From: Salvelinus alpinus
Taxonomy: Eukaryota > Chordata > Actinopteri > Salmoniformes > Salmonidae
Reading direction: 5' to 3'
NCBI RefSeq assembly: GCF_045679555.1
Contig: NC_092091.1
Location: forward strand, 16,354,572-16,418,571
DNA: 64,000 nucleotides
The notes beneath the pieces were generated by a model. It was not told where the DNA came from, searched no databases, and saw only the letters and a list, made by a program, of their open reading frames with translations. Positions within the stretch are counted from its first letter, which is position 1; the number at the start of each line of letters is the position of its first letter. A program made the translations under genes and the position numbers. Below are positions 1,751 to 58,617 of this stretch, piece after piece.

Positions 1751-2540
1751 GTACCAGACACATCACATGACACCAAGAGTCATTTAGCATGAGGCAAATG
1801 GGCAGAAAACAAGCAGATGATCTGTCAATGGGGCTCCATCTAATTCATAATGTGGTTGTTAGTTCTCTCTAAGCATATTGTTTGAAGTGCTTCTGGAGTC
1901 ATTGTTTGCGTAAAGACCCAAGCGTCACAAGCAGGTGTTGAATAATAGGCACAGAGGAGAGAGAAAGGCCTCGGAGAGGCAGGTGTCTTGGCAACAGGCA
2001 GGCAGGGCCTTCCCTTGCCGTCTCGCGGGGTTCTTATCGAAGCATACCTTGCACCTGAAAAATAAGAGCTGAGAAGCTTGAGGGGTTCTTTGAAATGTAA
2101 ATGACGCCCCCCCACCTACACACCTATCCCCCACCTACAGACCTACCCACCCACTCTCTGGACATTGTGTGTCTGTATATCAATGCATTTGCAAGTGTCC
2201 AACACTCTACACCAACACTTCATTCACACCGACACCACAAATGCCCTGGACATTTCACAATGGCACCTCAGTCATGATGTTTGTCAGTAAATGTGCAGTA
2301 TGACACACTGCTGGACTGACTCCTCTGTCATCATGACTATGAGATATTCACCTTAAATTATAAACATTTTGATGTTACCTATTGCATGATGCATATTAAA
2401 TAGAAAGAGGCTTGTGCAGCTTACAATGCTGATATAGACATTGCTATTGTAATGTTTTCAAGGACACAGTTACAACATCTGGCCTACAATCTCCCTATGC
2501 ACCACCCTATCTAGTGAGTTCCCTAGGTCCTCCATAGTCA
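1751..2540. other. Intergenic sequence between two minisatellites
   Basis: No exon, transposon terminus or RNA gene could be supported. There is a C-rich run near 2105-2155 with short imperfect repeats of CCCACCTACA. Confidence 0.45.
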
Positions 2541-3083
2541 GATGGGCCTATGTCATTGAGATTAAACTATTCTATCTCTATGGGCCTATGTCATAGAGAT
2601 ACAACTATTCTATGACTATGGGCCTATGTCATAGAGAAAAAACTATTCTATCACTATGGGCCTATGTCATAGAGATACAACTATTCTATCACTATGGGCC
2701 TATGTCATAGAGATACAACTATTCTATGACTATGGGCCTATGTCATAGAGAAAAAACTATTCTATGACTATGGGCCTATGTCATAGAGAAAAAACGATTC
2801 TATCTCCATGGGCCTATGTCATAGAGATACAACTATTCTATGACCATGGGCCTATGTCATAGAGATACAACTATTCTATGACTATGGGCCTATGTCATAG
2901 AGATAAAACTATTCTATCACTATGGGCCTATGTCATAGAGTTACAACTATTCTATGACTATGGGCCTATGTCATAGAGAAAAAACGATTCTATGACTATG
3001 AGCATATGTCATAGAGACACAACTATTCTATTACTATGGGCCTATGTCATAGAGATAAAACTATTCTATCTCTATGGACTATG
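2541..3083. repeat. 38-bp minisatellite with inverted-repeat units, about 14 copies
   Basis: A tandem array of a 38-base unit containing TATGGGCCTATGTCATAGAG, then ATACAACTAT and TCTATGAC. In many units TCTATGAC and GTCATAGA face each other across 11 bases, so each such unit can fold into a short hairpin. The variable part is the A-rich stretch (GATACAACT, GAAAAAACT or GATAAAACT). Confidence 0.95.
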
Positions 3084-4785
3084 TGCTCAGCTGCTCTGTA
3101 TGCAGCAGGGTGGCATCATGTGACTAGCGTTTCCAGGATACCTGGAGTGCGGCTAAGCTGCCCAATTAACGCTCGTCTTGAAAACCATTGCCTCATACAG
3201 TTTAAGTGATTGCTCTCAATGAGGGTTTGCTTCATGCAGATTGCAACCAGGGCATGAAAATAAGGTTTATTTGTCAATTGAGAGACGACGAGAGAAAATC
3301 CAATAAAATCATAGGCTATCACTACACAAGGTGAGTGTTTAAACCTTTTTGAATGTGAATTAGGCATAGGCAGCTTAGTATCCCAGATTGTTAGCCTACA
3401 AATGATTAAGGAACAATGTGGGATAATATGATGGTAATTTAATCTAATGATATAACCGTTTGATTATTGAAGAATATAATAATTATATGAGCCTACTCTA
3501 TTGTTACACAACATATAAGGTTGTTTTCTACTATTTTTTTGTTATCTGAATTCTTAAAAAAAACTGTCATGGACTGTCAGTCCCTTAAATCGATTGCCCA
3601 GAAGAATTTGAGAGTTGCATTTCCCCAGCCCATTTATACCAAACCTATGGGACTGGATCACTATCAGACCAAGATGTCAAGATTTATATTTTAATATTCC
3701 ATCAAATCAATTGATGACATTTGATACGTCTAATGGAGGCAATATTTGTTCAATTTTGTTATTTGTATATTCAATACAATTTTTCCTTGACAGAGTTGTC
3801 AACACAGGGGCCACAACGGACCACATTTACCGGGGGTGTATTTATTACGGAAACCGTTTACCGTTTAACAACCAAACAGAGAAAATTTAACGAAATGGGG
3901 CAGGACCTACCTGATTGTGTCCAATAGGAACTCTCGTTTGTTTTTTCCTCTTGGAATGGACGGTTTTTGCAACAACAAAAAAATGACAGACGAAACGTTT
4001 TGCAACAGAATCGGCGTAATGGTTATACCTCAGTAGAATTCCTAATCTCGTTATTGAGGTGATTTGTCCACGTGAGCTTCCGTACTGTTCATTCAGCTGA
4101 GAGCTGCAAAGAGCGAGTGGATGGGGGTTTGTGCTAACTGGAATTTCTATCCATTTCATTGTTGTTGTATGGACATTATGCAATAGTGTACTGTTTGTCT
4201 ACATTATTTCGAATGCGCATTTATTGTGTGTGTGTCTCTTGCTGATTGGCGAGCATTCATTAAACAGCGACACTGCACCAACCTGTTCTAGCTAGCTAAA
4301 TTTGCTAACAGTAGCTAGCTAACTAACGTTAGCAAGCTGTGTGCATACGGCATACCATAGCAGGCAGCAATATTATAATGCAATAAATTAATTTAGCAGA
4401 AATATGCTACGCTAAAAATGATTTGATTAGGCTCGGTTAGTCAATGCACGGCTTGGCACACGTCCCCAGGAATCCTACCGCTAGCTGATTAACTGGCTGG
4501 TAAAAGCAGCAGCGAGCCGACCGCCACCACCACAACATGAGTCAGATTAACGTTAGATGTCGGACTCTTTGAATACTCTCTGCTGCTACTTATCATTAAT
4601 TTCAGTTTTACGGCGTCGGAGGGAGATTCTCTACTTTGACAATTGGTATATTTAGTTACCTAGGCAGTGTTGATTGATAGTTACAGATTGTCAGCAGCCA
4701 TTATCAACACTGATATCGGATAGCTTTGTAAAATGTTGAAACCAATGTTGATCATCAGAATCCTCAATTAATCTGTCTGTTTCAG
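3084..4785 (+). promoter_or_regulatory. Probable upstream region and first untranslated exon of the phosphatase-like gene
   Basis: The next feature starts with an exon preceded by a clean acceptor (CTGTCTGTTTCAG at 4773-4785), so transcription must begin further upstream. About 4420-4640 is richer in CpG than the surroundings and is a reasonable place for the promoter and untranslated first exon. I could not fix the TSS or the donor. No transposon was recognised in this stretch. Placement is inference. Confidence 0.35.
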
Positions 4786-18731: not shown

Positions 18732-21700
18732 ATGTCGGAGTGAGTAACTTATACATTGATCGCATCTCATATTTTTGGATGTGGATGTGTAATACATGAA
18801 AATGAACATGATATTTTCTCTCACCTTTTCATAATTTTATCTCTTCAGGAAAAAGATGTCTTCGAGTCGGCGGCATTACCTAAAGGTAAACACTTTCAAA
18901 TATCTGATCTTAATTTGATACTTGTCAACAACTATCAATACAAGGAGAATTGAGGGGAACACAAGTATACAATATCTCAAGGTTCCTGTTTTACACGAAA
19001 TGTCCCAATTCTGGTATGGCTGAGCTTTTCATACGTGTAACCTGCACGCCTCATTGTCTCCCAGAGCTTGATGCTCTCCATCGCTAAAGGCTTACTGGAA
19101 GACGAGGCAAAGGAGAATGAGCAGGAGAGAATAAGATGGATGGCGGAGAACTGCCCTCCCCTGTCCCTGCCAGGGGGTACTCAACAGTTACAGGTAAACC
19201 AAACAAACAATCAATCAAATCAATCAAACTCAACAATCAAAATTTGGTCAAACCCCAAATCAATGTAAAATATATGCCTTCATATATAAGATGATTACAT
19301 AATTAGTTACTGTATTCAAATGTATTGAATAAAGTGTTCACTATTGTTATTATGATTATTATTATGAATAGTAGTAGTAGTATTAGTTGTAGTAGTCATA
19401 GTACCAGTAGCAGTAGTAGTAGCACTAATAGAAGTAGCAGAAGTACTGCAGTAGTAGTAGCAGTAGTAGTAGTAATAGTAGTTGCAGTAGTAGTAATAGT
19501 AGTAGTACCAGCAGCAGCAGTAGTAGCAGAAGCAGTAGTAGCAGTAGTACTAGTAGCAGTAGTAGTAGTAGTAGTAGTAGTAGCAGTAATACTAGCAGTA
19601 GTAGCAATAGTAGTTGCAATAGTAGTAGCAGCAGTAGTAGTGATGGTAGTATATATTTGTTTTATTAGTATAATGATGATGATGATGATTATTATTATTA
19701 ATGCTTGATTTTTGTTGATATCACCTCAGGAGTTCTTGAAAGAGCTGCATCATAAGATTGACGTGATAGATGAGGAGAGATATGACCTGGAGAGCAAAGT
19801 GAACAAAGCCACTAAGGAGGTATACTGTATTCACTTTACCTCACACCTACTAAAACTTGGAATGCATTCCATGAGTAATTATGTGGTGCCAGTTAGATCA
19901 ATGTTGTTGTTCTCCTCTTCTTCCATTGGTCAGATTGAAGATTTGAACATTAAAGTTATTGACTTGAAGGGCAAGTTCAAGAAGCCAACTTTGAGGAAAG
20001 TGCGTATGTCTGCTGATGCTATGCTCCAGGCTCTGCTGGGCTCCAAGCACAAGGTGTCTATGGATCTGAGATCCAACCTGAAACAAGTAAAGAAGGAGGT
20101 CAAAGAGGAGGTGGGTAACTGTTCAGTAAGATAACAGAATATTGTAGAGATGTCACTTTGGGTAATCTCTCGTGGATAGATGCGCGTAACATAAATGGTG
20201 CAACTTTGTTGCAAGACTCAAATTTTTCATCACTGATCATTTGGACAAATCACAATTTCGCAGGTGCTCGCATATTTCAAATTTCAGAAGGGGAGGGGAC
20301 ATTTGGCCCATAGACTTGTACAAAACTGGCTGAGAGATTCTGTTTAGAGGGGTAGAGACTTCACGAGTCTCATTAGTACAAAGTACATTTGTAGGACTTA
20401 ATCAAGCATCAATTTCACAAGATTTTTGTTCTGAGTGTCCGAGATTAGCCATTGGCAGACATTGTTATTGTCCAACCTGAGGCCTTGTTAATCTACACTA
20501 AGAGGTTCATCATACTGAAATTAGTTCACACATAGATAAGCTCAGCAGAGCGCACCCATGTAATAAGGCTGTTTGATTTGATGTTGTATAGAGTTGCCAA
20601 ACCACTGATACAGGGTCAGATATATTTTCATAGCATTGGGTTCATGGGTCATCTACAGCTATACAACTTCTGCCAAACAACTGCTCCACTCCGACTTTTT
20701 TATTTATTTTTTTATTTAACCTTTATTTAACCAGGTAGGCAAATTGAGAACACGTTCTCATTTACAATTGCGACCTGGCCAAGATAAAGCAAAGCAGTTC
20801 GACACATACAACAACACATAGTTACACATGGAGTAAAACAACATATAGTCAATAATACAGTGAAAAAAAAAAATAAAAAAAATAAATAAGTCTATATACA
20901 ATGTGAGCAAGTGAGGTGAGATAAGGGAGGTGAAGGCAAACAAATATATGTATAAATAAATAAAAATATAAAAGGCCATGGAGGCGAAGTGAGTACAACA
21001 CAGCACGTAAAATAAAAACTAAAAAAACAATGGAATGGTTGGTTTGCGGTGGAAGAAAGTGCAAAGTAGAGACAGAAATAAAGGGGTGCAAAGGAGCAAA
21101 ATAAATTAATAAATAAATACAGTAGGTAAAGAGGTAGTTGTTTGGGCTAAATTGTAGATGGGTTATATACAGGTGCAGTAATCTATGAGCTGCTCTGACA
21201 GCTGGTGCTTAAAGCTAGTGAGGGAGATAGGTGTTTCCAGTTTCAGAGATTTTTGTAGTTCGTTCCAGTCATTGGCAGCAGAGAACTGGAAGGAGAGGCG
21301 TCCAAAGGAAGAATTGGTTTTGGGGGTGACTAGAGAGATATACCTGCTGGAGCGCGTGCTACAGGTAGGTGCTGCTATGGTGACCAGCGAGCTGAGATAA
21401 GGGGGGACTTTACCTAGCAGGGTCTTGTAGATGACCTGGAACCAGTGGGTTTGGCGACGAGTATGAAGCGAGGGCCAGCCAACGAGAGTGTACAGGTCGC
21501 AGTGGTGGGTAGTATATGGGGCTTTGGTGACAAAACGGATGGCACTGTGATAGACTGCATCCAATTTATTGAGTAGGGTTTTGGAGGCTATTTTGTAAAT
21601 GACATCACCGAAGTCGAGGATTGGTAGGATGGTCAGTTTTACAAGGGTATGTTTGGCAGCATGAGTAAAGGATGCTTTGTTGCGGAATAGGAAGCCAATT

Positions 21701-24700
21701 CTAGATTTGACTTTGGATTGGAGATGTTTGATGTGAGTCTGGAAGGAGAGTTTGCAGTCTAACCAGACACCTAGGTATTTGTAGGTGTCCACATATTCTA
21801 AGTCAGAGCCGTCCAAAGTAGTGATGTTGGACAGGCGGGCAGGAGCAGGCAGCGATCGGTTGAAGAGCATGCATTTGGTTTTACTTGTATTTAAGAGCAG
21901 TTGGAGGCCACGGAAGGAGAGTTGTATGGCATTGAAGCTCGCCTGGAGGGTTGTTAACACAGTGTCAAAAGAAGGGCCAGAAGTATACAGAATAGTGTCG
22001 TCTGCGTAGAGGTGGATCAGAGAATCACCAGCAGCAAGAGCGACATCATTGATGTAAACAGAGAAGAGAGTCGGTCCAAGAATTGAACCCTGTGGCACCC
22101 CCATAGAGACTGCCAGAGGCCCGGACAACAGACCCTCCGATTTGACACACTGAACTCGATCAGAGAAGTAGTTGGTGAACCAGGCGAGGCAATCATTAGA
22201 GAAACCAAGGCTGTCGAGTCTGCCAATGAGGATGTGGTGATTGACAGAGTCAAAGGCCTTGGCCAGGTCAATGAATACGGCTGCACAGTATTGTTTCCTA
22301 TCGATGGCGGTTACGATATCGTTTATGACCTTGAGCGTGGCTGAGGTGCACCCATGACCAGCTCTGAAACCAGATTGCATTGCGGAGAAGGTGTGGTGGG
22401 ATTCGAAATGGTCGGTAATCTGTTTGTTGACTTGGCTTTCGAAGACCTTAGAAAGGCAGGGTAGGATAGATATAGGTCTGTAGCAGTTAGGGTCAAGGGT
22501 GTCCCCCCCTTTGAAGAGGGGGATAACCGCAGCTGCTTTCCAATCTTTGGGGATCTCAGACGACACGAAAGAGAGGTTGAAGAGGCTAGTAATAGGGGTG
22601 GCAACAATTTCAGCAGATAGTTTTAGAAAGAAAGGGTCCAGATTATCTAGCCCGGCTGATTTGTAAGGGTCCAGATTTTGCAGCTCATTTAGAACATCAG
22701 CTGACTGTATTTGGGAGAAAGAGAAATGGGGAAGGCTTGGGCGAGTAGCAGAGGGGAGGGCAGTGCTGTTGTCCGGGGTGGGGGTAGCCAGGTGGAAAGC
22801 ATGGCCAGCCGTAGAAAAATGCTTATTGAAATTCTCGATTATAGTGGATTTGTCGGTGGTGACAGTGTTTCCTATCTTCAGAGCGGTTGGAAGCTGGGAG
22901 GAGGTGTTCTTATTCTCCATGGACTTTACGGTGTCCCAGAACTTTTTTGAATTTGTGTTGCAGGAAGCAAATTTCTGCTTGAAATAGCTAGCCTTGGCTG
23001 TTCTAACTGCCTGTGTATATTGGTTTCTGGCTTCCCTGAAAAGTTGCATATCACGGGGGCTGTTCGATGCTAATGCAGAACGCCATAGGATGTTTTTCTG
23101 TTGGTTAAGGGCAGTCAGGTCAGGAGAGAACCAAGGGCTATATCTGTTCCTGGTTCTAAATTTCTTGAATGGGGCATGCTTATTCAAGATGGTGAGGAAG
23201 GCATTTTTAAAAAATGACCAGGCATCCTCTACTGACGGGATGAGATCAATATCCTTCCAGGATACCCCGGCCAGGTCGATTAGAAAGGCCTGCTCGCTGA
23301 AGTGTTTCAGGGAGCGTTTGACAGTGATGAGTGGAGGTCGTTTGACCGCTGACCCATTACGGATGCAGGCAATGAGGCAGTGATCGCTGAGATCTTGGTT
23401 GAAAACAGCAGAGGTGTATTTGGAGGGCAAGTTTGTTAGGATGATATCTATGAGGGTACCCGTGTTTACGGAATTGGGGTGGTACCTGGTAGGTTCATTT
23501 ATAATTTGTGTGAGATTGAGGGCATCAAGCTTAGATTGTAGGGTGGCTGGGGTGTTGAGCATGTTCAAATTTAGGTCGCCTAGCAGCACGAGCTCTGAAG
23601 ATAGATGGGGGGCAATCAGTTCACATATAGTGTCCAGAGCACAGCTGGGGGCAGAGGGTGGTCTATAGCAGGCGGCAACGGTGAGAGACTTGTTTTTAGA
23701 GAGGTGGATTTTTAAAAGTAGAAGTTCAAATTGTTTGGGAACAGACCTGGATAGTATAACAGAACTCTGCAGGCAGTCTTTGCAGTAGATTGCAACACCG
23801 CCCCCTTTGGCCGTTCTATCTTGTCTGAAAATCTTGTAATTGGGGATGAAAATGTCTGAATTTTTGGTGGTCTTTCTAAGCCAGGATTCAGACACGGCTA
23901 AAACATCCGGGTTGGCAGAGTGTGCTAAAGCAGTGAACAAAACAAACTTAGGGAGGAGGCTTCTAATGTTAACATGCATGAAGCCAAGGCTATTACGGTT
24001 ACAGAAGTCATCAAAAGAGAGCGCCTGGGGAATAGGAGTGGAGCCAGGTACTGCAGGGCCTGGATTCACCTCTACATCACCAGAGGAACAGAGGAGGAGT
24101 AGGATAAGGGTACGGCTAAAAGCTATGAGAATTGGTCGCCTAGAGCTACAAGAGCAGAGAGTAAAAGGAGGTTTCTGGGGGCGATAAAATAGTTTAAAGG
24201 AATAATGTACAGACAAAGGTATGGTAGGATGTGAATACAGTGGAGGTAAACCTAGGTATTGAGTGATGATGAGAGAGATATTGTCTCTAGAAACATCATT
24301 GAAACCAGGTGATGTCATCGCATATGTGGGTGGTGGAACTGAGAGGTTGGATATGGTATAGAGAGCAGGGCTAGAGTCTCTACAGTGAAATAAGCCAATA
24401 AACACTAACCAGAACAGCAATGGACAAGGCATATTTACATTAAGGAGAGGCATGCTAATCGAGTGATCAATAAGGGTCCAGTGAGTAGAGGTTGGTTGGG
24501 GTCGTGGCGATCCAGACAGCTGGCCGGGTATATGGCTATCGGTAGCAGCATAGGATGGAGGTCTGTTTGTAGATACCTCGTGCGTTTCCGTCGGTAGGTT
24601 AGTGGGGTTCCGTGTAGTGGGGTTCCGTGTGGTAGAGGGGATCAATCCAAATTGGCAAAATAGATATAGTGACCCAAGGAAAAAATAAAATAAATAAATA

Positions 24701-25733
24701 ATAATAATAATAATAGTTGTCCAATATACTTGTTCAAATAGCAGCCGATAAGACAGCTAACGAATTAGCGGGCCTCAGATGAGCGTTCAGGTAACGTCGG
24801 GACGGAGGTGCCAGTTGGATAAATCCCTCGGGCAGATAACGTCGGCAGTCAGTCGCGGCAGTCAGTCGTGAAGGCCCGGTGGGGTTCCGTATCTGCAGCA
24901 GCAACAAAAGAAACGGGTCCGGGTGGTGATGGAACTCCTCAGCTGGCTAGCTCCAGAATGATTAGAGTTTGCTCCGGGGTCGACGTAAGCCAATAGTCAC
25001 ACGGTTTGCAGCTAGCTAGCTGCGAAATCAAGGTACAAGTGTCCAGAGCCTGCGGCTGGAATCCGGGGAAACTGAGAGAAAAAAAAAAGAGTCCCGGAAT
25101 GCTCCGGTCCGAGTCGCGTTGCACAAAAGTGCCGGTAGATTATCGAGCTAAAGGAATAGCTGATGACCACTAAACGTGGGCAGCTGAAACACCAACGCTA
25201 GCCAGCAAACCGGCTAATTTCGGGGCAGCTACAGATTAGCTTCTGGCTAGCTATCGGAGTAGCTTCTGGTTAAGCTTTCATGCTATCTTCTGAATTAGCC
25301 CCTGGCTAGCTTCCACGATGGATTTTCAGATTGAGGTAAGTAATACTTTTGTAATTGGTGAAGCGGGTTGCAGGAAAGCTTTTGCAGGAAAGCTTTTGTA
25401 GTTGAGTTCTTGGATAATAAAATAGATAAAAGATATGCGAAGAAAGGTGTAAATATATATATATACAGGACACGAACAATACGGAACAGAAAAAGACGTC
25501 TGAACTGCTAAGCCACCTTGGAATAGAGGTGACGAATAGACTTGACGACATGTTGTTTGGCTTCAACACTCAAATATCTCAAGGTTATAATTTACTGAAT
25601 TTTTAACCCTGAACCTTTGACTATGTTGCTATTGCAGGATAAGGAACTGCGTAATGTTGGAGACTGGCGTCAGAACATTGAAGACAAGTCCGGAATGGAC
25701 GGGAGGAAGAAGATGTTTGAGTCCGAGGGTTAA
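18732..25733 (+). CDS. tnni2: Fast skeletal troponin I, copy 1 (178 aa)
   Basis: Coding exons are 18732-18739, 18849-18885, 19065-19193, 19730-19819, 19934-20110 and 25638-25733, all GT-AG with matching phases. Troponin I is the inhibitory subunit of the thin-filament troponin complex: it binds actin-tropomyosin and, when Ca rises, troponin C. The protein starts [15 protein letters not shown]. About residues 16-58 are the N-terminal TnC-binding part. About 59-100 form the helix pairing with troponin T ([19 protein letters not shown]). The inhibitory region is about 101-114 ([14 protein letters not shown]), followed by the switch segment ([15 protein letters not shown]) and a C-terminal actin-binding end with [21 protein letters not shown]. 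Length and motifs match the fast isoform; the slow and cardiac N-terminal extensions are absent. The last intron is 5.5 kb because it contains a full LINE. An AATAAA lies at 25896-25901. Subfamily: with copy 2. Confidence 0.96.
19365..19690. repeat. (GTA)n-type trinucleotide repeat in intron 4 of copy 1
   Basis: About 320 bases of imperfect AGT/AGC triplets, ending in GAT and ATT triplets. It produces spurious ORFs of Ser, Val or Leu runs on both strands. It lies between the 129-base and 90-base exons. Confidence 0.95.
21163..24453 (-). CDS. LINE polyprotein: 2A-like motif, APE endonuclease, reverse transcriptase (1096 aa)
   Basis: The frame is open further upstream to about 24757, but the first in-frame ATG is at 24453. 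The TTG at 24645 is not a credible eukaryotic start, so I start at 24453. Numbered from that ATG: residues about 9-25 are hydrophobic ([15 protein letters not shown]); about 107-121 are hydrophobic ([16 protein letters not shown]); 125-133 read GDVEVNPGP, matching the 2A consensus DxExNPGP. The APE endonuclease follows: HVNIRSL (N162), SESW (E189), GDLN (D293) and SDH (356-358). The reverse transcriptase has [10 protein letters not shown] (727-736), [10 protein letters not shown] (785-794) and LYADD (815-819). There is no internal stop. In known 2A sequences the ribosome skips the last Gly-Pro bond, which here would give a 132-residue N-terminal protein and a 964-residue enzyme. The clade looks like the CR1/L2/Rex group, not resolved. 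Confidence 0.93.
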   Translation of the reverse strand: MPLLNVNMPCPLLFWLVFIGLFHCRDSSPALYTISNLSVPPPTYAMTSPGFNDVSRDNISLIITQYLGLPPLYSHPTIPLSVHYSFKLFYRPQKPPFTLCSCSSRRPILIAFSRTLILLLLCSSGDVEVNPGPAVPGSTPIPQALSFDDFCNRNSLGFMHVNIRSLLPKFVLFTALAHSANPDVLAVSESWLRKTTKNSDIFIPNYKIFRQDRTAKGGGVAIYCKDCLQSSVILSRSVPKQFELLLLKIHLSKNKSLTVAACYRPPSAPSCALDTICELIAPHLSSELVLLGDLNLNMLNTPATLQSKLDALNLTQIINEPTRYHPNSVNTGTLIDIILTNLPSKYTSAVFNQDLSDHCLIACIRNGSAVKRPPLITVKRSLKHFSEQAFLIDLAGVSWKDIDLIPSVEDAWSFFKNAFLTILNKHAPFKKFRTRNRYSPWFSPDLTALNQQKNILWRSALASNSPRDMQLFREARNQYTQAVRTAKASYFKQKFASCNTNSKKFWDTVKSMENKNTSSQLPTALKIGNTVTTDKSTIIENFNKHFSTAGHAFHLATPTPDNSTALPSATRPSLPHFSFSQIQSADVLNELQNLDPYKSAGLDNLDPFFLKLSAEIVATPITSLFNLSFVSSEIPKDWKAAAVIPLFKGGDTLDPNCYRPISILPCLSKVFESQVNKQITDHFESHHTFSAMQSGFRAGHGCTSATLKVINDIVTAIDRKQYCAAVFIDLAKAFDSVNHHILIGRLDSLGFSNDCLAWFTNYFSDRVQCVKSEGLLSGPLAVSMGVPQGSILGPTLFSVYINDVALAAGDSLIHLYADDTILYTSGPSFDTVLTTLQASFNAIQLSFRGLQLLLNTSKTKCMLFNRSLPAPARLSNITTLDGSDLEYVDTYKYLGVWLDCKLSFQTHIKHLQSKVKSRIGFLFRNKASFTHAAKHTLVKLTILPILDFGDVIYKIASKTLLNKLDAVYHSAIRFVTKAPYTTHHCDLYTLVGWPSLHTRRQTHWFQVIYKTLLGKVPPYLSSLVTIAAPTCSTRSSRYISLVTPKTNSSFGRLSFQFSAANDWNELQKSLKLETPISLTSFKHQLSEQLIDYCTCI
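24055..24081 (-). other. 2A-like translational recoding motif
   Basis: Codons for GDVEVNPGP in the LINE ORF. All consensus positions (D, E, N, P, G, P) are present, directly after a Leu-rich stretch, as in active 2A sequences (upstream helix then the DxExNPGP turn). 2A-like sequences are known in several APE-type non-LTR retrotransposons. Activity in this copy is inferred. Confidence 0.85.
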
Positions 25734-28435: not shown

Positions 28436-29945
28436 CAGTACCAGTGAAAAGTTTGGACACACCTACTCATTCAAGTGTTTTTATTTATTTAGACTATTTA
28501 CATTGTATAATAATAGTGAAGACATCAAAACTATGAAATAACACATATGGAATCATGTAGTAACCAAAAAAGTGTTAAACATATCAAAATATATGTTATA
28601 TTTTAGATTCTTCAAAGTAGCCACCCTTTGCCTTGATGACAGCTTTGCACACTCTTGGCATTCTCTCAACCAGCTTCACCTGGAATGCTTTTCCAACAGT
28701 CTGGAAGGAGTTCCCACATATGCTAAGCACTTGTTGTCTGCTTATCCTTCACTCTGCGGTCCAGCTCATCCCAAACCATCTCAATTAGGTTGAGGTGGGG
28801 TGACTGTGGAGGCCAGGTCATCTGATGCAGCACTCCATCACTCTCCTTCTTGGTCAAATAGCCCTTACACAGCCTGGATGTGTGTTGGGTCATTGTCCTG
28901 TGGAAAAACAAATGATAGTCTCACTAAACGCAAACCAGATGGGATGGCATATCGCTGCAGAATGCCGTGGTAGCCATGCTGGTTAAGTGTGCCTTGAATT
29001 CTAAATAAGTGTCACCAGCAAAGCACACCCACACCATCCCACCTCCTCCTCCATGCTTCACGGTGGGAGCCACACAGATCATCCGTTCACCTACTCTGCG
29101 TCTCAGAAAGACACGGCGGTTGAAGGCAAAAATCTCAAATTTGGACTGATCAGACCAAAGGACAGATTCCACCGGTCTAATGTCCATTGCTCGTGTTTCT
29201 TGGCCCAAGCAAGTCTCTTCTTATTATTGGTGTCCTTTAGTAGTGGTTTCTTTGCAGCAATTAGACCATGAATGCCTGATTCACGCAGTCTCCTCTGAAC
29301 AGTTGATGTTGAGATGTGTCTGTTACTTGAACTCTGTGAAGCATTTATTTGGGATGCAATCTGAGGTGCAGTTAACTCTAATGAACGTATCCTCTTCAGC
29401 AGAGGTAACTCTGGGTCTTCCTTTCCTGTGGCAGTCCTCATGAGAGCTAGTTTCATCATAGAGCTTGCTGGTTTTTGCAACTGCACTTGAAGAGACTTTC
29501 AAAGTTCTTGAAATGTTCAGTAATGACTGACCTTAATTTCTTAAAATAATGATGGACTGTCGTTTCTCTTTGCTTATTTGAGCTGTTCTTGCCATAATAT
29601 GGACTTGGTCTTTTACCAAATAGGCTATCTTCTGTATATCACCTATAACTTATCAAAACACAACTGTTTGGTTCAAATGCATTAAGAAGGAAATAAATTC
29701 CACTATTTAACTTTCAACTAGGCACACCTGTTAATTGAAATGTATTCCTCATGAAGCTGGTTGAGAGAATGCCAAGAGTGTGCAAAGCTGTCATCAAGGC
29801 AAAGGGTGGCTACTTTGAAGAATCTCAATTATAAAATATATTTTGATTTGTTTAACACTTTTTTCGTTACTGTATGATTCCATATGTGTTATTTCATAGG
29901 TTTGATGTCGTCACTATTATTCTACAGTGTAGAAAATAGTCAAAT
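28436..29945 (-). mobile_element. Third-family Tc1-like transposon, broken transposase
   Basis: The left end CAGTACCAGTGAAAAGTTTG follows TA. The right end has decayed near GTAGAAAATAGT. The minus strand carries transposase fragments: [20 protein letters not shown] and [20 protein letters not shown] (about 29103-29486), [13 protein letters not shown] with KHGGGGGMVW (28924-29208), and [19 protein letters not shown] (28723-28911). These include the first Asp (SDQ) and the final Glu region of the DDE triad. Several frameshifts separate them. Confidence 0.92.
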
Positions 29946-30431
29946 TATTTGTATTATTTTCTACATCTACAATAGACTGACATCTTTACTAGACCCGGTC
30001 CAAAATCTGTGCTATGTGATGTTTGAAAAGACAACATTTCACTAGCCGGCGGGCTAGTTGGGTACATTTTCAACTAACCCGGTGTGAAAAGTTCTAGCCA
30101 TCGTCAACCATAATTTCTATCCCTGCATGTCAGCTCACAAGAGTTGCTGTACTGTAAATACATCTATGCCTGTTTAGTTGAGCTTATTGAAGCTGGAGTG
30201 ATACTATTTCAATTAAACATTTTAAAAGTAATGTGCAGCTCTGTGAAGTTCCCTCTCTTCTGCAAGTATGAAGGACGAGAGTTTTTCAGAACGGTACTGC
30301 TTTAAACAGTATTATTGGACATTCATGGCTTTGGTTAATTGCACAATAAACTAATCTGAATTTGAATCTGAACAATAATCACCCCGGATAGAAAAAGAGA
30401 TATGCTAAGAAACACATTTTTATAATACATA

Positions 30432-31890: not shown

Positions 31891-33986
31891 ATGGCTGAGT
31901 AAGTATAGGCCAATACTTTGTCTACATGTTGTGTTTCAAGTGTTTAGGTAGTTGTACTTAACCTGACTTTCTTTCCTTGGTCCAATAGCAAGAAAGGCAA
32001 CGTGTCCTCAAGCCGTAAGCACACTCTGAAGGTAAGGAATCCCACACAGCCATTTTAATGTTTTACGTAGAATAAAACATGTAATAATGTATAAAAATCA
32101 TAATATAACATACTTTTAAAAAGTAGTAAAACAAAGGGAGATATAGGTCAATTATCTGTCAACTGTCATAATTTGTCTCCAGAGTTGTATGCTGGCACTT
32201 GCTAAGGATTGGCTTGAAGCTGAAGCATTAGAGAAAGTTAAAGAGAGGGAGAGATACATGGAAGAGAACTGCCCTCCTCTGGAGATGTCCCACTCCAAGG
32301 ATGATTTGACGGTATGATATTCAGATATTCAAAGACAGACATTATGAAAACATATCATACCTGCTTGATACAGTGTGTTGTATGAATTGTGCTTCTATCC
32401 GGATCAGCTGTACTAAGTTCAAGCATAAAAATAGGTATTGTATGAAGACAGTTACATTTTCCTTTGTTGCATTCTTTCATTAGGAGCTTTGCAAAAAGAT
32501 GTACGACAAAATTAATGTGATTGATGAGGAGAGATACAACTTAGAATATAAAGTGATCATGGTTTGCAATGAGGTAAGCAACTGTCTTGTCTGTTCCGTT
32601 TTTTAATGTTTCAATATAAATATACAGTGCCTTCAGAAAGACTTATTACACATTTTGTTGTGTTACAGCTTGAATTAAAAATGGATTAAATAGATTTTGA
32701 TTCTCACCTATCTACACACAATACCCCACAATGACAAATTGAAAACATGTTTTTAGATATTTTTGCAAATGTATTAAAAATGAAATACAGAGACATCTCT
32801 GAGTAAAATCACCTTTGGCTGTGATGACAGCTGTGAGTCTTTCTGGATAATTCTCTAAGAGCTTTCCACACCTGTATTGTGAAACATTTGCCTATTATTA
32901 TTTTCAAAATTCTTCATTCTCTGTCAAATTAGTTGATCATTGCTAGACAACCATTTTCAGGTTTTGCCATTGATTTTAATGTAGATTTAAGTCTAAACTG
33001 TAACTCGACCACTCAGTAATATTCACTGTCTTCTTGGTAAGCAACTCCAGTATTGATTTGGCTTTGTGTTTTAGGTTATTGTCCTGCTGGGTCTTGAAAG
33101 GTGAATCAATCTCCCAGGGTCTTGAAAGGGTCTTTGTGGCTGAATTTGTGTTTGATATTCACTGCTCGACAGAGGGCTATAGAGATGAGGTAGTCATTCA
33201 CAAATCATATTAAACACTATTACTGCACACAGAGTGAGTCCATGCAACTTATTATGTGACTTGTTAAGGCTTGCCATAACCAAGGGGTTGAATACTTATT
33301 GACTCGAGACATTTTAGCTTTTCATTTTCTAATTGACTTGAAAAAATTTCGAAAAAAGAATTCCACTTTGACATTATGGGGTATGGTGTGTAAAAAAAGT
33401 TTATGAATGTTAAATTCAGGCTGTAACAAAATAACATTTTGAAAAAGTCAAGGGGTGTGAATACTTTCTGAAGGCACTGTATATACAATATATATATATA
33501 ACAGTATATATGGTATATGATAAATATATTTTATATGTATACAGTTCCTTTGTTGAGCCCACCTGAAACACTGATTTTCCTGTTCCAAAATTCCACCCAC
33601 TAGGTTTTAGACCTAAACATAAAAATAGTTGACCTGAGGGGCAAGTTCAAGAAGCCAGCTCTGAAGAAAGTGCGTATGTCTGCTGATGCTATGCTCCAGG
33701 CTCTGCTGGGCTCCAAGCACAAGGTGACCATGGATTTGAGATCCAACCTGAAACAAGTGAAGAAAGATGAGAAGAAAGAGGTGGGTCCATTAGGTTGGAT
33801 ATCGCATCGGGAGATATTGTCAATGTTGAACGAACTTTAGGCCTTGATATTCTACACTTCATTGTCTTCTCACCCTTTCTACCATCACAGGATAAGGAAT
33901 TGCGTGACGTTGGTGACTGGCGTAAGAACATTGACGACAAGGCTGGTATGGACGGCAGGAAGAAGATGTTTCAGGGAGATAATTAG
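31891..33986 (+). CDS. tnni2: Fast skeletal troponin I, copy 2 (180 aa)
   Basis: Coding exons are 31891-31898, 31989-32031, 32183-32311, 32484-32573, 33604-33780 and 33891-33986, all GT-AG. The second exon is 43 bases instead of 37, which adds two residues: the N-terminus is [17 protein letters not shown]. The first exon encodes MA rather than MS, and the split third codon gives Asp instead of Glu. Motifs in order: TnC-binding part ([20 protein letters not shown]), TnT-pairing helix ([16 protein letters not shown]), inhibitory region [14 protein letters not shown] at about 103-116, switch [15 protein letters not shown], and C-terminus [20 protein letters not shown] ending FQGDN. It is closest to copy 1 in the inhibitory and C-terminal exons. 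The intron between the 90- and 177-base exons holds a Tc1 derivative. AATAAA at 34122-34127. Confidence 0.96.
32625..33479. mobile_element. Tc1-like deletion derivative in an intron of tnni2 copy 2
   Basis: The ends CAGTGCCTTCAGAAAGACTT and AGTACTTTCTGAAGGCACTG-like inverted sequence are bounded by TA at 32623-32624 and 33480-33481. Length is 855 bases. No intact transposase segment remains. It is related to the elements at 6438, 35170 and 62570. Confidence 0.9.
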
Positions 33987-40812: not shown

Positions 40813-43800
40813 ATGTCTGAGTAAGTTCCAATATGTTCTTATGATATCAGTGACTATATTTGTCTGCCCTGTGTGAATAATATTAACTTCACTACTATAT
40901 TGGTGTTCATCAATGGAATAGCCTCTCATTAGGGGCGAGTGGGGTAAGATGGGACATTTTATATATGCTCAATATGGAAAAATAAATATAGCATTCACTC
41001 TATGATGTATACTTTATGATCTTGGACATCCATGTATACAGTATCAATAAATTGCCTTTTTTATTAATGGTTGGAAACTCATCTTTACCTCTCCAGTGCC
41101 CCATGTCCCATTTTTTTTTTAAATCAAAAATGTAAACATTTCTAGGAAATTCACACATCTTTTGATCAACTCTTTTAGGAAAAAAATGGCATCGAGTCGC
41201 AAGCATCATCTGAAGGTAATTTGTTACAAGTAAAAAAAAATAAAAAAAAATTGGAAATAAACTTTATCTTGAGCACAATATATTATAATATTACATTATA
41301 CTGAAAGTCTTTGTGTGTTGTGATGTGTATTCCACTGTTAACCTTCATCCAGTTGTGTCACTATTCCTGCTTCTCTCTTCTCCAGAGCTTGATGCTCCAG
41401 ATTGCTAAGGGCTTGCTAGATGCAGAGGCCATAGAGGCAGTGGAAGAGAAGAAAATGTACATGGATGAGAATTGCGCTGCATTGGACATGCCTGGGTCAT
41501 TGGCGGAACTGCAGGTACAGTATCAAATGCTTAAACTACATTTTCAATCTACACTGTCAGGAAATTCACTTTCGTTGCCCCACAGTGCAGGTGGGTTGTT
41601 TTTATTACATTCAGTTCTTAATTTCAATCTTTAGTTGTTCAAGGTTCCTTTTGTTAATAACCTCCTGCAGGAACTGTGCAAGACAATTCATCACCAGATT
41701 GATAAAGTGGATGAAGAGAGATATGACCTGGCAGGCAAAGTGGGCAAGTGTGACAAAGAGGTACAGAAACCATAATTAATCTGTCAAGTGAAATCCTATT
41801 GTAGCCATTTGAGGTTGATTATGTTTGTTGATTTTCTCTCTTGTTAAGAGTGCAGATCTAGTCTTTTTCCTGACTTCCTCTCTTCACAGATTGAGGATTT
41901 GAGGATTAAAGTGATTGAGTTCCAAGGCATGAAGAAGCCAGCTCTGAAGAAAGTACGTATGTCTGCTGACTCCATGCTCCAGGCACTGCTGGGCTACAAG
42001 CACAAGGTGTCTATGGATTTTAGAGCCAACCTGAAAGAAGTGAAGAAGGAAGTCAAAGAGGAGGTGGGTATTTGTGTGGAAACCTACAAAGCAGAGAATT
42101 GGTATAATACTATGGAAGGATATCAGTGCATACTCATGGGAAGATGTAAGATGTTTTGAGTTGGGGAGGTCACCTTTATAAGAAAGCGGTGCCTGTCTCT
42201 ATCATCGAATTTGCGTATAGTGGCGCAGAAGACAGAAGCAGAAGACATTCTATGATTTAGCAAAAGCATTTCATGCAATTCTACATAATTTTACATGAAG
42301 GGAGACATTTGCAAAATATTTTTTAATACCAAACAAACAACCGTAATGACAGGGTACTCTCACCCTGAAACAACCGTAATGACAGGGTACTCTGACCCTG
42401 AAACAACCGTAATGACAGGGTACTCTGACCCTGAAACAACCGTAATGACAGGGTACTCTGACCCTGAAACAACCGTAATGACAGGGTTCTCTGACCCTGA
42501 AACAACCATAATGACAGGGTACTCTGACCCTGAAATAACCATAATGACAGGGTACTCTGACCCTGAAACAACCGTAATGACAGGCTACTCTGACCCTGAA
42601 ACAACCGTAATGACAGGGTATTCTGACTCTGAAATAACCGTAACTAGAGTGTACTCTGACCCTGAAACAACCGTAATGACAAGGTACTCTGACCCTGAAA
42701 TAACCATAACTACAGGGTACTCTGACCCTGAAACAACCGTAATGACAGGGTACTTTGACCCTGACAAACTGAGATCAATAGAAACAACCTAGTCTTGAAT
42801 GCAACCAATAGCCTAGGCCAAGTATTCCCAAACTGGGGTACGCGAAATGCCGTCGAGGGTACGTTAAATAAAACATTTTTAAAAATCTAAATATATATAT
42901 ATATTTTTTTTTTTCCTTCACATTTTCAAACAGTCCATTTATATTTTCCAACGGGTCTATACATTTGGGTGAGGTTTTTTTCTCACCTGAGTAGCCTTGT
43001 TTCACTGGCAAAAATGAAATTAAACCATCTAGTGTTCAGCGTAATAACAACACAATGTCAAATACAGGTAGCCTAGTCAAATAATGAACATCCAATCACA
43101 TTAACCGTTACTCTCTTGCGGGAATTCCACTAACGGACCGTAAGTAGTCAAATGTAGCTGCTGCTCATTCTGTTTGCTCGAAAATTAATAAATGGTTAAA
43201 AAAAGTAAGGCCTGCGTCCATAGAGACACATACCAGCTCTACTGGTAGTACTGCTACAACCAGCAGTACTACGCCTACACCTGTCTGACACAAGTTGTTC
43301 TGCTTCCACGAGTACATCCAATGCTAGCATCAGTAATTTTACATTTGTTATTAGCCCAGCTAGCATGGACACTGACAGTTGTGAATCTGATGCAGCCGAA
43401 GAGCTACTGCCCCCTTACCCGGGAAAGCACCGAACAACAGACAGGGTCCATGGACCATCGAAGATGTGCAAATATGATGAGAACTACATTTATTTGGGGT
43501 TCACTTATATTGGGAGTAGGGCCTTTCCTCAGCCACAGTGTGTTATGTGCAAAAGTACTATCTCACAACTCGATGAATCCTTCACTCTTGTGCAGACATT
43601 TAGAAACAAAACATGCCAATTTGAAAAATAAGCCACATTTTTTTTGAGCGAGAATTAAGACGACTTTCGAGTAGTAAGACATGTATAAAAGCAATAGTTC
43701 CATTAATAAGAACAGGCTAGAAGTGTCTTATATGGTGAGCTACCGAGTGGCTAGGACAGGCAAGCCCCATGCTATTGTGGAGGACTTAATTCTTCCTGCT

Positions 43801-46800: not shown

Positions 46801-49683
46801 AATGTCTGTCCTGCTAAGCATTCCAAATGTAACGAATACTTTTGGGTGTCAGCGAAAATGTGTGGAGTAAAAAGTACATTATTTTCTTTAGGAATGTAGT
46901 GAAGTAAAAGTAAAAGTAGTCAAAAATATAGATAGTTGAGTAATGTACAGATACCCAAAAAACTACTTAGGTAGTTCTTTAAAGTATTTTTACTTAAGTA
47001 CTTTACACCACTGTCAAATATTTTGTTAGCCTAACAACAGACTATAGACAGATTAGAGTCTTCTGTATTCAGCAGTAGCTATTTGCTTTCCAAACTGTTT
47101 TTCCCATTATTGTATTTTGAAATATTGCGAAAGACCAGGCAATTTTAGCTGCTCACTGTTCACAGTGGCGACTCAACAATCAGCTGTTTGATATTTGCCA
47201 CAAGTGCTGCCCAAATTGCAGCAGGCGTCCTGACTGTATGCGCTTGTGATTACACACAATCCACAGCTAAAGAAGCTATTGATCCTCTGTCGCTAAATTA
47301 AGCTCTCTGGTACATTCATTTGAATGATTTCATTTATTGTTGTACAGACAGGAACCTATAACTTTGCCAAATCTATTTAAATGTATCAGAGGGTGCTGCA
47401 GCACCCCTACTTCTAGAGACGGCAGGAGCGGCAGGAGCGGCAGGAGTGGTAGAGATACTCTCAATGATCGGCTATGAAAAGCCAACTGACATTTACTCCT
47501 GAGGTGCTGACCTGTTGCGCCCTCGACAACTACTGTGATTATTATTATTTGACCATGCTGGTCATTTATGAACATCTGAACATCTTGGCCGTGTTCTGTT
47601 ATAATCTCCACCCGGCACAGCCAGAAGAGGACTGGCCACCCCTCATAGCCTGGTCCTCTCTAGGTTACTTCCTAGGTTTTGGCCTTTCTAGGGAGTTTTT
47701 CCTAGCTGCCGTGCTTCTACACCTGCATTGCTTGCTGTTTGGGGTTTTAGGCTGGGTTTCTGTACAGCACTTTGAGATATCAGCTGATGTAAGAAGGGCT
47801 ATATAAATACATTTGATTTGATTTGATACTTCACGAGGCTATGTATCAGTCGTGACCAAAAGTTTTGAGAATGACACAAATATTAATTTCCATAAAGTTT
47901 GCTGCTTCAGTGTCTTTAGATATTTTTGTCAGATGTTACTATGGAATAGTGAAGTATAATTACAAGCATTTCATAAGTGTCAAAGGCTTTTAATGACAAT
48001 TACATGAAGTTGATGCAAAGAGTCAATATTTGCAGTGTTGGCCCTTCTTTTTCAAGACCTCTGCAAAGTCAATTAACTTCTGGGCCACATCCTGACTGAT
48101 GGCAGCCCTTTCTTGCATAATCAATGCTTGGAGTTTGTCAGAATTTGTGAGGTTTTGTTTGTCCACCCGCATCTTGAGGATTGATCACAAGTTCTCAATG
48201 GGATTAAGGTCTGAGTTTCCTGGCCATGGACCCAAAATATCTATGTTTTGTTTCCCGAGCCACTTAGTTATCACTTTTGCCTTACGGCAAGGTGCTCCGT
48301 CATGCTGGAAAAGGCATTGTTCGTCACCAAACTGTTCCTGGATGGTTGGGAGAAGTTGCTCTCGGAGGATGTGTTGGTACCATTCTTTATTCATGGAGGT
48401 GTTCTTAGGCAAAATTGTGAGTGAGCCCACTCCCTTGGCTGAGAAGCAACCCCACACATGAATGGTCTCAGGATGCTTTACTGTTGGCATGACACAGGAC
48501 TGATAGTAGCGCTCACCTTGTCTTCTCCGGACAAGCTTTTTTCCGGATGCGCCAAACAATTGGAAAGGGGATTCATCAGAGAAAATGACTTTACCCCAGT
48601 CCTCAGCAGTCCAATCCCTGTACCTTTTGCAGAATATCAGTCTGTCCCTGATGTTTTTCCTGGAGAGAAGTTGCTTCTTTGCTGCCCTTCTTGACACCAG
48701 ACCATCCTCCAAAAGTCTTCGCCTCACTGTGCGTGCAGATGCACTCACACCTGCCTGAGCAAGCTCTGTACTGGTGGTGCCCCGATCCCGCAGCTGAATC
48801 AACTTTAGGAGACGGTCCTGGCGCTTGCTGGACTTTCTTGGGCACCCTGAAGCCTTCTTCACAACAATTGAACCGCTCTCCTTGAAGTTCTTGATGATCC
48901 GATAAATGGTTGATTTAGGTGCAATCATACTGGCAGCAATATCCTTGCCTGTGAAGCCCTTTTTGTGCAAAGCAATGATAACGGCACTTGTTTCCTTGCA
49001 GGTAACCATGGTTGACAGAGGAAGAACAATGATTCCAAGCACCACCCTCCTTTTGAAGCTTCCAGTCTGTTATTCAAACTCAATCAGCATGACAGAGTGA
49101 TCTCCAGCCTTGTCCTCGTCAACACTCACACCTGTGTTAACGAGAGAATCACTGACATAATGTCCGCTGGTCCTTTTGTTGCAGGGCTGAAATGCAGTGG
49201 AAATGTGTTTTTGGGATTCAGTTAATTTGCATGGCAAAGAGGGACTTTGCAATTAATTGCAATTCATCTGATCACTCTTCATAACATTCTGGAGTATATG
49301 CAAATTGCCATCATACAAACTGAGGCAGCAGACTTTGTGAAAATGAATATTTGTGTCATTCTCAAAACGTTTGGCCACGACTGTACAGCACATTACATTT
49401 GAAGTCAATTTTTTTTGTCATATTAAATTATTTTATTGACTAATATCACTCCATATTGACTAAAATCACTCTATGAATGTACTTTCTTTCCTTTTTACAA
49501 AACCCTTAAAGCTCAAATTTTAAATAACCTAAACAAATAGCTTAGATTCTCTCTTGACCGGATCTCTCTGCTGTAACACCCACTCTACCCTTACAGGACA
49601 AAGATGCAGTTGGTGACTGGCGTAAGAACATTGATGACAAGGCAGGCATGGACGGCAGAAAGAAGATGTTTGAGGCCGCATAA
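40813..49683 (+). CDS. tnni2: Fast skeletal troponin I, copy 3 (174 aa)
   Basis: Coding exons are 40813-40820, 41179-41215, 41386-41514, 41671-41760, 41890-42063 and 49597-49683, all GT-AG. The N-terminus is MSEKKMASSRKHHLK, followed by SLMLQIAKGLLDAEAIEAVE and the TnT-pairing helix HHQIDKVDEERYDLAGKV. The inhibitory-region exon is 174 rather than 177 bases: it reads [14 protein letters not shown] where copies 1 and 2 have KGKFKKP or RGKFKKP, so one residue of the basic segment is missing. The switch is ADSMLQALLGYKHKV. The C-terminal exon is shorter (28 aa, [20 protein letters not shown], ending MFEAA). The last intron is 7.5 kb and full of repeats. AATAAA at 49931-49936. Subfamily: with copy 4. 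Confidence 0.95.
42340..42775. repeat. 33-bp minisatellite, about 13 copies, in the last intron of copy 3
   Basis: The unit is ACCGTAATGACAGGGTACTC followed by TGACCCTGAAACA. Because 33 is divisible by 3, the array stays open in some frames on both strands (TVMTGYSDPET repeated on +) and produces ORFs of up to 165 codons. These have no splice context and I do not treat them as genes. The last units are more diverged. Confidence 0.96.
42820..45362 (+). mobile_element. hAT transposon, ZBED-like, broken and truncated at the right
   Basis: The left part reads ATTCCCAAACTGGGGTACGC. The right part reads GAGGTACGGGACTATAAAAA, where an inverted partner of the left end would follow, but a Tc1 fragment starts instead. 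The + strand carries transposase pieces: a BED-type zinc-finger part with YLGFTYIGSRAFPQPQCVMC (about 43470-43560), HLETKHANLKNKPHFF in another frame, EDLILPAAVDMAGTMLGKKA (about 43770-43850), and DVLKQLLVRIQANEFYALQL followed by DESTDVADLAQLL (about 43859-44092), which matches the ZBED5/SCAND3 class of hAT-derived proteins. Later parts continue to about 45000. Several frameshifts are present. Confidence 0.85.
45362..46368 (-). mobile_element. Left-truncated Tc1-like transposon
   Basis: The right end TACTTTCCAAATGCACTG is followed by TA at 46369-46370. The left end is missing and the sequence begins inside the transposase at about CAGTCCCTGCCGCTGAAAAA. The minus strand reads MRNKILWSDETKIELFGLNA and KHGGGRIMLWGYFSAAGT at 45400-45524, then more decayed N-terminal codons. 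The junction with the hAT element is abrupt. Confidence 0.88.
46477..47013. mobile_element. 537-bp hAT-like MITE with perfect 8-bp target duplication
   Basis: The ends CAGTAGTGGATAAAGTACCC and GTACTTTACACCACTG are inverted. The exact 8-mer TCAAATAT flanks both sides (46469-46476 and 47014-47021). The interior is made of short repeats of AAAAGTA and AAGTAAAAGT on both strands and has no coding capacity. Confidence 0.93.
47575..47827 (+). mobile_element. LINE-type 3' tail
   Basis: Non-coding sequence containing CTGTACAGCACTTTGAGATA and ending in ATTTGATTTGATTTGATA. A short tandem hexamer tail is typical of CR1/L2-type retroposons. The first part, to about 47700, is the inverted partner of 16060-16170. 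Confidence 0.7.
47847..49383 (-). mobile_element. Fifth-family Tc1-like transposon, almost intact
   Basis: The ends CAGTCGTGACCAAAAGTTTT and the reverse complement of AAAACGTTTGGCCACGACTG have TA near 47844-47845 and at 49384-49385. The inverted match continues through GAGAATGACACAAATATT. It contains the transposase ORF listed next. It is in the last intron of tnni2 copy 3, antisense to it. Confidence 0.94.
48185..49045 (-). pseudogene. Tc1 transposase, nearly complete, one nonsense codon near the C-terminus
   Basis: An open frame of 286 codons. The N-terminal paired-like DNA-binding part is ETSAVIIALHKKGFTGKDIA with SMIAPKSTIYRIIKNF, then a second helix-turn-helix region (TSTELAQAGVSASARTVRRR). 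The DDE domain has IFSDESPFQLFG (first Asp), CLFQHDGAPC (second Asp) and NSDLNPIENL (final Glu). The frame stops right after ENL with TGA, where the family has Trp (TGG). Downstream codons still read SILKMRVDKQNLTNSDKLQ. I therefore call a single nonsense change that removes the last few dozen residues after the catalytic Glu. Function, if any, would require readthrough. Confidence 0.9.
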
Positions 49684-58100: not shown

Positions 58101-58378
58101 AAGAAGTGAAGAAGGAAGTCAAAGAGGAGGTGGGTATTTGTGGGGGAAATTACGAAGCAGAGAATCACAGTACTTTAGGAGTTGGCGGCAGTTGTCCCGA
58201 ATGTGCTCAGAACTTTGAGGAAAGGATCAGTTACATGAATTTCATATTACATCCTCAAACACTAAGAATGTCACATCGTACATTTTATGTCATGCAGGAG
58301 GAAGTCGGTGACTGGCGTAAGAACGTTGATGAACAGGCTGGCATGGACGGCAGGAAGAAGAAGTTTGAGACCGCATAA
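55159..58378 (+). CDS. tnni2: Fast skeletal troponin I, copy 4 (172 aa)
   Basis: Coding exons are 55159-55166, 55266-55302, 57360-57488, 57780-57869, 57956-58129 and 58298-58378, all GT-AG. The N-terminus is [15 protein letters not shown], followed by [20 protein letters not shown] and the TnT-pairing helix [18 protein letters not shown]. The inhibitory exon is 174 bases and reads [14 protein letters not shown], one residue shorter than in copies 1 and 2. The switch is [15 protein letters not shown]. The C-terminus is the shortest of the array (26 aa, [18 protein letters not shown] then RKKKFETA), with Lys where the others have Met in RKKMF. The intron after the second coding exon holds a complete Tc1. 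A variant signal ATTAAA is at 58551. The end of the 174-base exon and the start of the next intron are nearly identical to copy 3. Confidence 0.95.
55384..56953 (-). mobile_element. Third-family Tc1-like transposon, full-length ends, decayed transposase
   Basis: The ends CAGTACCAGTCAAAAGTTCG and the reverse complement of CAAACTTTTGACTCATACTG are intact, with TA on the left (55382-55383). Length is 1.57 kb. Same family as 28436-29945. The minus strand still reads [20 protein letters not shown] near 55700, but the rest is shifted and broken. Confidence 0.93.
56963..57000. mobile_element. Short LINE tail remnant
   Basis: CAGGTAAGTCAATTAAGAAC resembles the LINE 3' region at about 20733 (CAGGTAGGCAAATTGAGAAC). 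Confidence 0.5.
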
Positions 58379-58617
58379 ATTACTGAATTTGTTTTTGAAT
58401 CCATCTTTTAGGTTATGTTGTTGTACCGTCACAGAGTTAGAGTCATTTTGTCAATCTATTTAACTTAAACGTATGTCTTATGTCAATAGTAAAAAGCTAT
58501 TGAAGAAAACGTATTTTACCTATGTCCAATATTCATGCCAAAGCACAGTAATTAAATGAATGCTTTGAAGAAGACAGTCTTTTTTTGTTACTTTTGATAT
58601 GTATATTTCTTGAATAC

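Follow-up and report, generated by a model that had tools for sequence, protein, structure and literature searches.

An intact, multicopy LINE of Salvelinus alpinus with an in-frame 2A-like motif and a leader with a signal-like start

Results

The element and its surroundings

The DNA analysed (the window) is a stretch of 64,000 nucleotides of the Salvelinus alpinus genome (NC_092091.1, positions 16,354,572 to 16,418,571), which carries an intact LINE on its minus strand. The features of the element are listed in Table 1.

Table 1. Features of the LINE, in window coordinates.
Feature	Position	Strand	Basis or remark
Full-length APE-type LINE, about 4.8 kb	20697..25522	-	Ends common to 10 fetched copies
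5' leader RNA, about 1,069 nt	24454..25522	-	
Single intact ORF, 1,096 codons, ATG (24453) to stop (ending at 21163)	21163..24453	-	
Predicted 132-residue leader, residues 1-132, ending ...NPG	24058..24453	-	No match in Pfam (E<=10)
N-terminal hydrophobic, signal-like segment, residues 8-24	24382..24432	-	Hydrophobicity
2A/StopGo region, residues 106-133, Leu-rich context	24055..24138	-	Resembles the LLLLSG-like class in an excerpt of PMC12846837
Core octapeptide DVEVNPGP	24055..24078	-	DVExNPGP in 67/68 sampled copies
AP-type endonuclease (EN) domain, residues 162-358	23380..23970	-	Pfam PF03372 Exo_endo_phos, E 9.9e-08
Reverse transcriptase (RT) domain, residues 656-897	21763..22488	-	Pfam PF00078 RVT_1, E 2.3e-32
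3' UTR with tail ...CCTGGTTAAATAAAGGTTAAATAAA	20697..21162	-	

The AP endonuclease is N-terminal to the RT within one ORF, as in APE-type LINEs, and by sequence this ORF matches LINE-1 ORF2p and R2 chains in the PDB. With this domain order (AP endonuclease, then RT), the element may belong to the CR1/L2/Rex1 assemblage; Rex1 elements are described in an excerpt of PMC6274825. The boundaries were taken from ten other copies retrieved from this genome, six of which have their 5' end exactly at 25522 and four 2-10 nt away from it, while their tails fall at 20695-20699 in window numbering. Eight of these copies aligned with the window LINE in one piece from end to end, and two (L015 and L018) in two pieces reaching both ends. 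No convincing target-site duplication was found for the window copy.

The 5' leader RNA of the window copy contains an out-of-frame ATG at 24551, which opens a 38-codon upstream ORF overlapping the main ATG. Read by eye, the copies of a second subfamily (subfamily B, below) that were compared here have an upstream ORF of 6 codons, and in them the stretch between 24551 and the main ATG is frame-shifted. Translation from a non-AUG codon upstream of 24453 was also considered, as the frame is open there; however, it is not favoured because about 30 codons of this extension are frame-shifted between the subfamilies (5-nt and 1-nt differences, by eye).

Repeated exon-like segments of two repeat families, D11 and D19, are found at 19748-19806, 25650-25731, 32502-32560, 33903-33984, 41689-41747, 49603-49684, 57798-57856 and 58298-58379. 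They look like a tandem cluster of what we take to be troponin I genes, and the LINE seems to lie inside an intron of one copy of that cluster, on the opposite strand. The window also contains a 286-codon transposase ORF on the minus strand (48185-49045), judged by eye to be Tc1/mariner-like, with repeats of similar kind in inverted and direct pairs (for example 28758-29947 with 55714-56903), and minisatellites with 25-, 38- and 33-nt units at about 488-1900, 2428-3187 and 42236-42863.

The 2A motif and the leader

GDVEVNPGP occurs once in the ORF, with NPGP at residues 130-133 (codons 24066..24055), and this is the sole NPGP in the six frames of the window; the composition-based chance expectation of the octamer in the ORF is about 2.8e-6. 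The motif has the form (D/G/C/N)(V/I)ExNPGP, in frame upstream of EN, by which 2A-bearing LINEs are recognised. A first-pass annotation had reported this motif within 24055..24453, in frame in an intact APE/RT ORF and without naming a strand. Its coordinates were correct, the strand is minus, and the 1,096 codons, the Pfam matches to EN and RT and the single NPGP all bear it out. Separation is predicted between G132 and P133, giving an N-terminal product of the 132 residues that had been proposed, the separate production of which is expected from the sequence.

When the Kyte-Doolittle mean was taken over 19 residues at a time, all values above 1.6 in the ORF fell within residues 1-24 and 107-127. 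The annotation had counted two hydrophobic segments before the endonuclease. The N-terminal one (residues 1-24) stands, but the second looks like the Leu-rich context of the 2A itself. The hexapeptide before the octamer is LLCSSG, and excerpts of PMC12846837 describe LLLLSG-like upstream hexapeptides, linked to D at p12 and to a preceding G, within a StopGo class of RNA viruses; according to these excerpts, the L-rich motifs end in (A/S/C)G before D, and the one of the two that was tested (motif 6, through a representative) was active in lysate. The window LINE shares with this class the D-V-E-x-N-P-G-P core and the Leu-rich residues ending in SG before D, although it is a retrotransposon and not a virus and has LLCSSG rather than LLLLSG. 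Due to this likeness, we read one of the two hydrophobic segments as part of the 2A and the other as a signal-like start.

The same excerpts state that upstream context affects 2A activity, and LLCSSG is similar but not identical to the context tested there. The motif could in that case be inert in the window LINE, with one polyprotein being made. We regard this as very unlikely, given a canonical octamer that has a G before the D, sits in a Leu-rich context and is kept between subfamilies. Ribosome skipping by the window LINE is very likely on the strength of these sequence features.

AF2 modelling of the leader alone was uninformative (mean pLDDT 40), and the helix that it placed at residues 10-27 has low confidence, residues 11-20 having a pLDDT of about 54. 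The absence of a visible classical ORF1, also noted in the first pass, was upheld: classical ORF1 proteins are separate and have an RRM, CCHC, esterase or PHD domain, whereas neither the leader nor the in-frame extension upstream of it gave any Pfam match, and the element contains no second ORF of at least 250 aa.

Copy number and retention of the motif

A 318-residue query against the same genome (2.37 Gb) gave 28,151 candidates. Of the best 125, which were scored, 123 were identical at 100% and two at 99% (as printed, over 318 residues); 88 of these best 125 had open frames of at least 1,096 codons and 29 had fewer than 700. With an RT query, the best 147 of 99,389 candidates were scored and all were printed at 100%. 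The window LINE is young, full-length and multicopy. It differs from the ten first-fetched copies by S102C.

The octamer was intact in all ten of these copies, some of which overlap with the 68 described here. A first sample comprised, from the 147 RT-query matches, the first 40 whose open frame reached 1,100 or more, and D-V-E-x-N-P-G-P was kept in 39 of them (the free position x being V in 37 and G in 2), the remaining one, L075, having no leader match. A second sample of 28 copies (8 available as loci and 20 fetched), out of 40 matches from a search with a LINE from a mussel record, was partly selected through the 2A end of the query. Three of its copies (L108, L109 and L114) have a stop or deletion in the leader. 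When both samples were pooled, DVExNPGP was present in 67 of 68 copies, all except L075; 66 of the 67 were found by codon pattern, and L102 has a synonymous Asn codon. Frequent loss of NPGP from otherwise intact copies, which would have spoken against the first-pass reading, was not seen (39/40 keep the motif), but the test is low in power because the copies are young. Retention of the 2A is consistent with function, although not strong evidence for it.

One copy, L011 (G000:C1), is near-identical to the window over the first 370 codons and more diverged in the RT (residues 641-900: 14 synonymous and 8 nonsynonymous differences). It is possibly a mosaic, or this could be an effect of choosing copies with an N-terminal query.

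Selection on the leader

The window copy represents subfamily A, and a copy of subfamily B (L053) is 97.9% identical to it over codons 1-162. Between the two there are 1 synonymous and 4 nonsynonymous differences in the first 100 codons, 2 and 1 in residues 101-132, 6 and 3 in EN (133-370), and 12 and 4 in RT (641-900). The contrast of the first 100 codons with the rest was not significant (p = 0.15).

A search of the same genome with the pattern GD-I-ExNPGP, which excludes the DVE form of the window itself, gave 44 matches, compared to 0 for a backward control, and these form an older subfamily with a leader of like layout. Sequences were taken for 22 of the 44 (2 as loci, 20 fetched) and 20 were aligned, after L137 (upstream part non-homologous by eye) and L141 (frame-shifted and near the young forms by eye) had been dropped. 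L126 and L129, which resemble the young forms closely, were excluded from the old majority sequence. Of the 20 aligned copies, 19 differ in length by 3 nt, in frame.

Between the old majority and subfamily A, the leader has a dS of 0.224 and a dN of 0.095 (ratio 0.42), and the ratio with subfamily B is 0.50. The dead-copy control, in which copies are compared with their majority, gave 0.64, and the contrast with 0.42-0.50 was not significant (p = 0.42). Nonsynonymous to synonymous (N:S) counts were then made per segment on well-aligned older copies only, 15 to 17 of 18 depending on the segment. Residues 106-125 have an N:S of 20:25 (17/18 copies) compared to 251:126 in the spacer (15/18 copies; p = 0.005), and nearly all of this segment lies outside the search pattern by which the copies were chosen. 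Synonymous differences are also fewer there (0.083 vs 0.138 per site), therefore part of the low divergence is not protein constraint. The constraint on the 2A core cannot be tested with these copies, as they were picked by that core (residue 125 onwards). Residues 1-24 (76:36, p = 0.82) show no extra constraint relative to the spacer, and the same comparison for residues 134-162 (57:31) gave p = 0.80. The first pass had proposed examining purifying selection on the 132 N-terminal codons. The low N:S of residues 106-125 may in part reflect such selection in the 2A context; for the leader as a whole the substitution ratios are below 1 but indistinguishable from the dead-copy control, and outside the 2A context, including residues 1-24, no significant constraint was detected, therefore we do not claim selection on the leader. 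Among the replacements in the older subfamily, F18I and G20V keep the N-terminal segment hydrophobic, whereas L4P and the single-copy L21S do not.

Related LINEs in the same genome and in distant records

When genome records of bacteria and archaea were scanned by pattern, four octamers preceded by SG were found, three of which belong to LINEs: L019 (JAAEPJ010000017.1, the 'Cli_8' MAG record), L020 (NZ_CAHJWD020000073.1, a Bathymodiolus brooksi symbiont record) and L021 (JANQNF010000073.1, an archaeon MAG record). These are probably animal-type LINEs present in prokaryote records as host contamination. At E<=0.01, Pfam found RT in all three and EN in ORF2 of L019 and in L021, but not in L020. 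L022, from Brevibacillus, has a frame of only 87 residues and was taken as chance. The MAG genomes of L019-L021 yielded one pattern match each, the known ones. No relatives by protein were found in the viral contigs or genome contigs searched. The octamer itself was present in 18 viral contigs, several being copies of one sequence, and these were taken as chance: none has a directly preceding Leu-rich stretch, and the 50 residues after the octamer are unlike EN/RT by eye. A stricter 2A pattern gave 0 matches in viral contigs.

The window ORF is 27% identical to both L020 and L021, and 29% identical to L044, a LINE from its own genome with APE and RT in ORF2 (one of 46 matches read), which we take to be an L2 element. 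Unlike the window LINE, L044 has a separate ORF1 with a GDSL esterase domain, and NPGP is found in neither of its ORFs.

The leaders of L019-L021 have 87-106 residues and end in LLLLSG or LLLSG followed by DVExNPGP. The starts of L019 and L021 are signal-like, being the most hydrophobic 15 residues of each protein; that of L020 is less hydrophobic, and its start codon is uncertain. The most hydrophobic window within the first 30 residues was matched, outside the 2A, by 0 of 988 other 30-residue stretches in the window protein, 0 of 251 in L019, 0 of 969 in L021 and 17 of 1,045 in L020. The combined p of 1.7e-7 is rough, since overlapping stretches were taken as independent, and four elements make a small sample. 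When the window protein was compared by blastp with those of the other 2A-LINEs, no alignment began before its residue 89, therefore the leader starts share no detectable sequence.

It could be that the 2A works and the leader is a mere carrier, replaceable by any other peptide of a length that brings the 2A into the exit tunnel, with the hydrophobic start a T-rich by-product or a relic. We give this somewhat less than an even chance. It would fit the lack of significant constraint on residues 1-105, the unshared leader starts and the leader without a Pfam domain. However, distant LINEs repeatedly have a hydrophobic N-terminus, unmatched in three of the four by any other 30-residue stretch beyond the 2A, and F18I and G20V preserve hydrophobicity in the older subfamily, though L4P and L21S weaken this point. 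The like layout in a few distant retrotransposons suggests that the leader may have a job of its own.

L019 differs from the window LINE in what follows the 2A, namely a 253-residue charged protein that looks coiled-coil by eye and has no Pfam match, with EN/RT in a separate ORF2. The leader and 2A precede this ORF1-like protein, therefore the leader is an addition there and not a replacement. This makes doubtful the suggestion of the first pass that the leader is an ORF1 substitute, that is, an RNA-binding or chaperone protein. Such a role is compatible with the lack of a second ORF of 250 aa or more in the element and of a known ORF1 domain in its leader, but the window leader has no RNA-binding domain recognisable by Pfam, and together with L019 this leaves the reading quite improbable.

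Discussion

The window contains what is probably an active, or very recently active, APE-type fish LINE, in which a 2A would release a 132-residue leader whose signal-like start would dock translation at a membrane. From the features described we infer both the skipping and the membrane step, the latter being plausible. One mRNA would be translated from the ATG at 24453. With about residues 106-132 in the ribosome exit tunnel, the 2A peptide would block formation of the glycyl-prolyl bond (StopGo/2A), the leader would be released, and the same ribosome would continue with the endonuclease-reverse transcriptase from P133. In this way, the leader could bring the translating ribosome, together with the element RNA, to a membrane that the enzyme itself would not be drawn into. 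Membrane delivery is put forward as the most likely extra role because of the signal-like, hydrophobic start of the leader; such a start is strong in three of the four 2A-LINEs seen and weaker in the fourth (L020), which we count in favour of membrane direction. The overlapping upstream ATG ahead of the start in the window copy counts against this explanation, as do the lack of significant constraint on the leader outside the 2A context and the low pLDDT of the leader model. In addition, signal sequences at the N-terminus are reported to inhibit the separation of certain artificial polyproteins by 2A (excerpt of PMC2978324), therefore a signal-like start and a 2A may not combine freely.

Another combination of the two elements is found in sea urchin NLR genes, the leaders of which include 2A peptides doubling as signal sequences (excerpt of PMC4981915). 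The likeness to the window LINE is a hydrophobic leader and a 2A forming one N-terminal unit. The NLR genes are, however, cellular genes with the 2A at the extreme N-terminus, in leaders of 26 residues where the 2A is itself the signal, whereas in the window LINE the 2A ends at residue 133, the hydrophobic start is a distinct part of a 132-residue leader, and a LINE enzyme follows. As has been proposed for the urchin leaders, a fraction of the ribosomes might not skip; the resulting fusion of leader and enzyme would then go into the secretory pathway, and the skipped enzyme would remain cytosolic. The NLR precedent and the signal-like start of the window leader speak for such dual targeting, but about 100 residues separate the signal-like segment from the 2A, and it is hard to see what use an EN/RT that must reach chromosomal DNA would have in the ER, hence we consider dual targeting unlikely.

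If membrane docking is taken further, the signal-like N-terminus, the spacer and the Leu-rich 2A might be one transferable 'leader-2A' module, kept across LINE clades and phyla and set before whichever protein comes first (EN/RT here, ORF1-like in L019), which would dock translation at a membrane and then free the enzyme or ORF1p. We offer this extension tentatively and do not consider it the likelier outcome.

APE-type LINEs with a 2A are known from the clades Rex1, Crack, L2, L2A, CR1 and Ingi. Such non-LTR retrotransposons were reportedly described by Odon et al. in 2013 (Mol Biol Evol 30:1955). Like them, the window LINE has an in-frame 2A upstream of an APE endonuclease and RT, and its family is, as far as this analysis tells, a new addition to the group. 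What it adds is a fish family with subfamilies, together with the observation that the leaders of four elements start hydrophobically. In the literature searched, with the text of Odon 2013 outside its scope, no account was found of the role of the piece upstream of the 2A in LINEs.

To summarise, the presence of 2A in LINEs was already known, and the part worth following is the recurrence of a hydrophobic leader, which in L019 stands ahead of an ORF1-like protein. Since four distant elements start hydrophobically and one of them keeps an ORF1-like protein as well, the question of whether the leader is a lost ORF1 becomes a testable question of membrane docking. The fish family is young and has many intact copies, which makes it a practical system for such tests.
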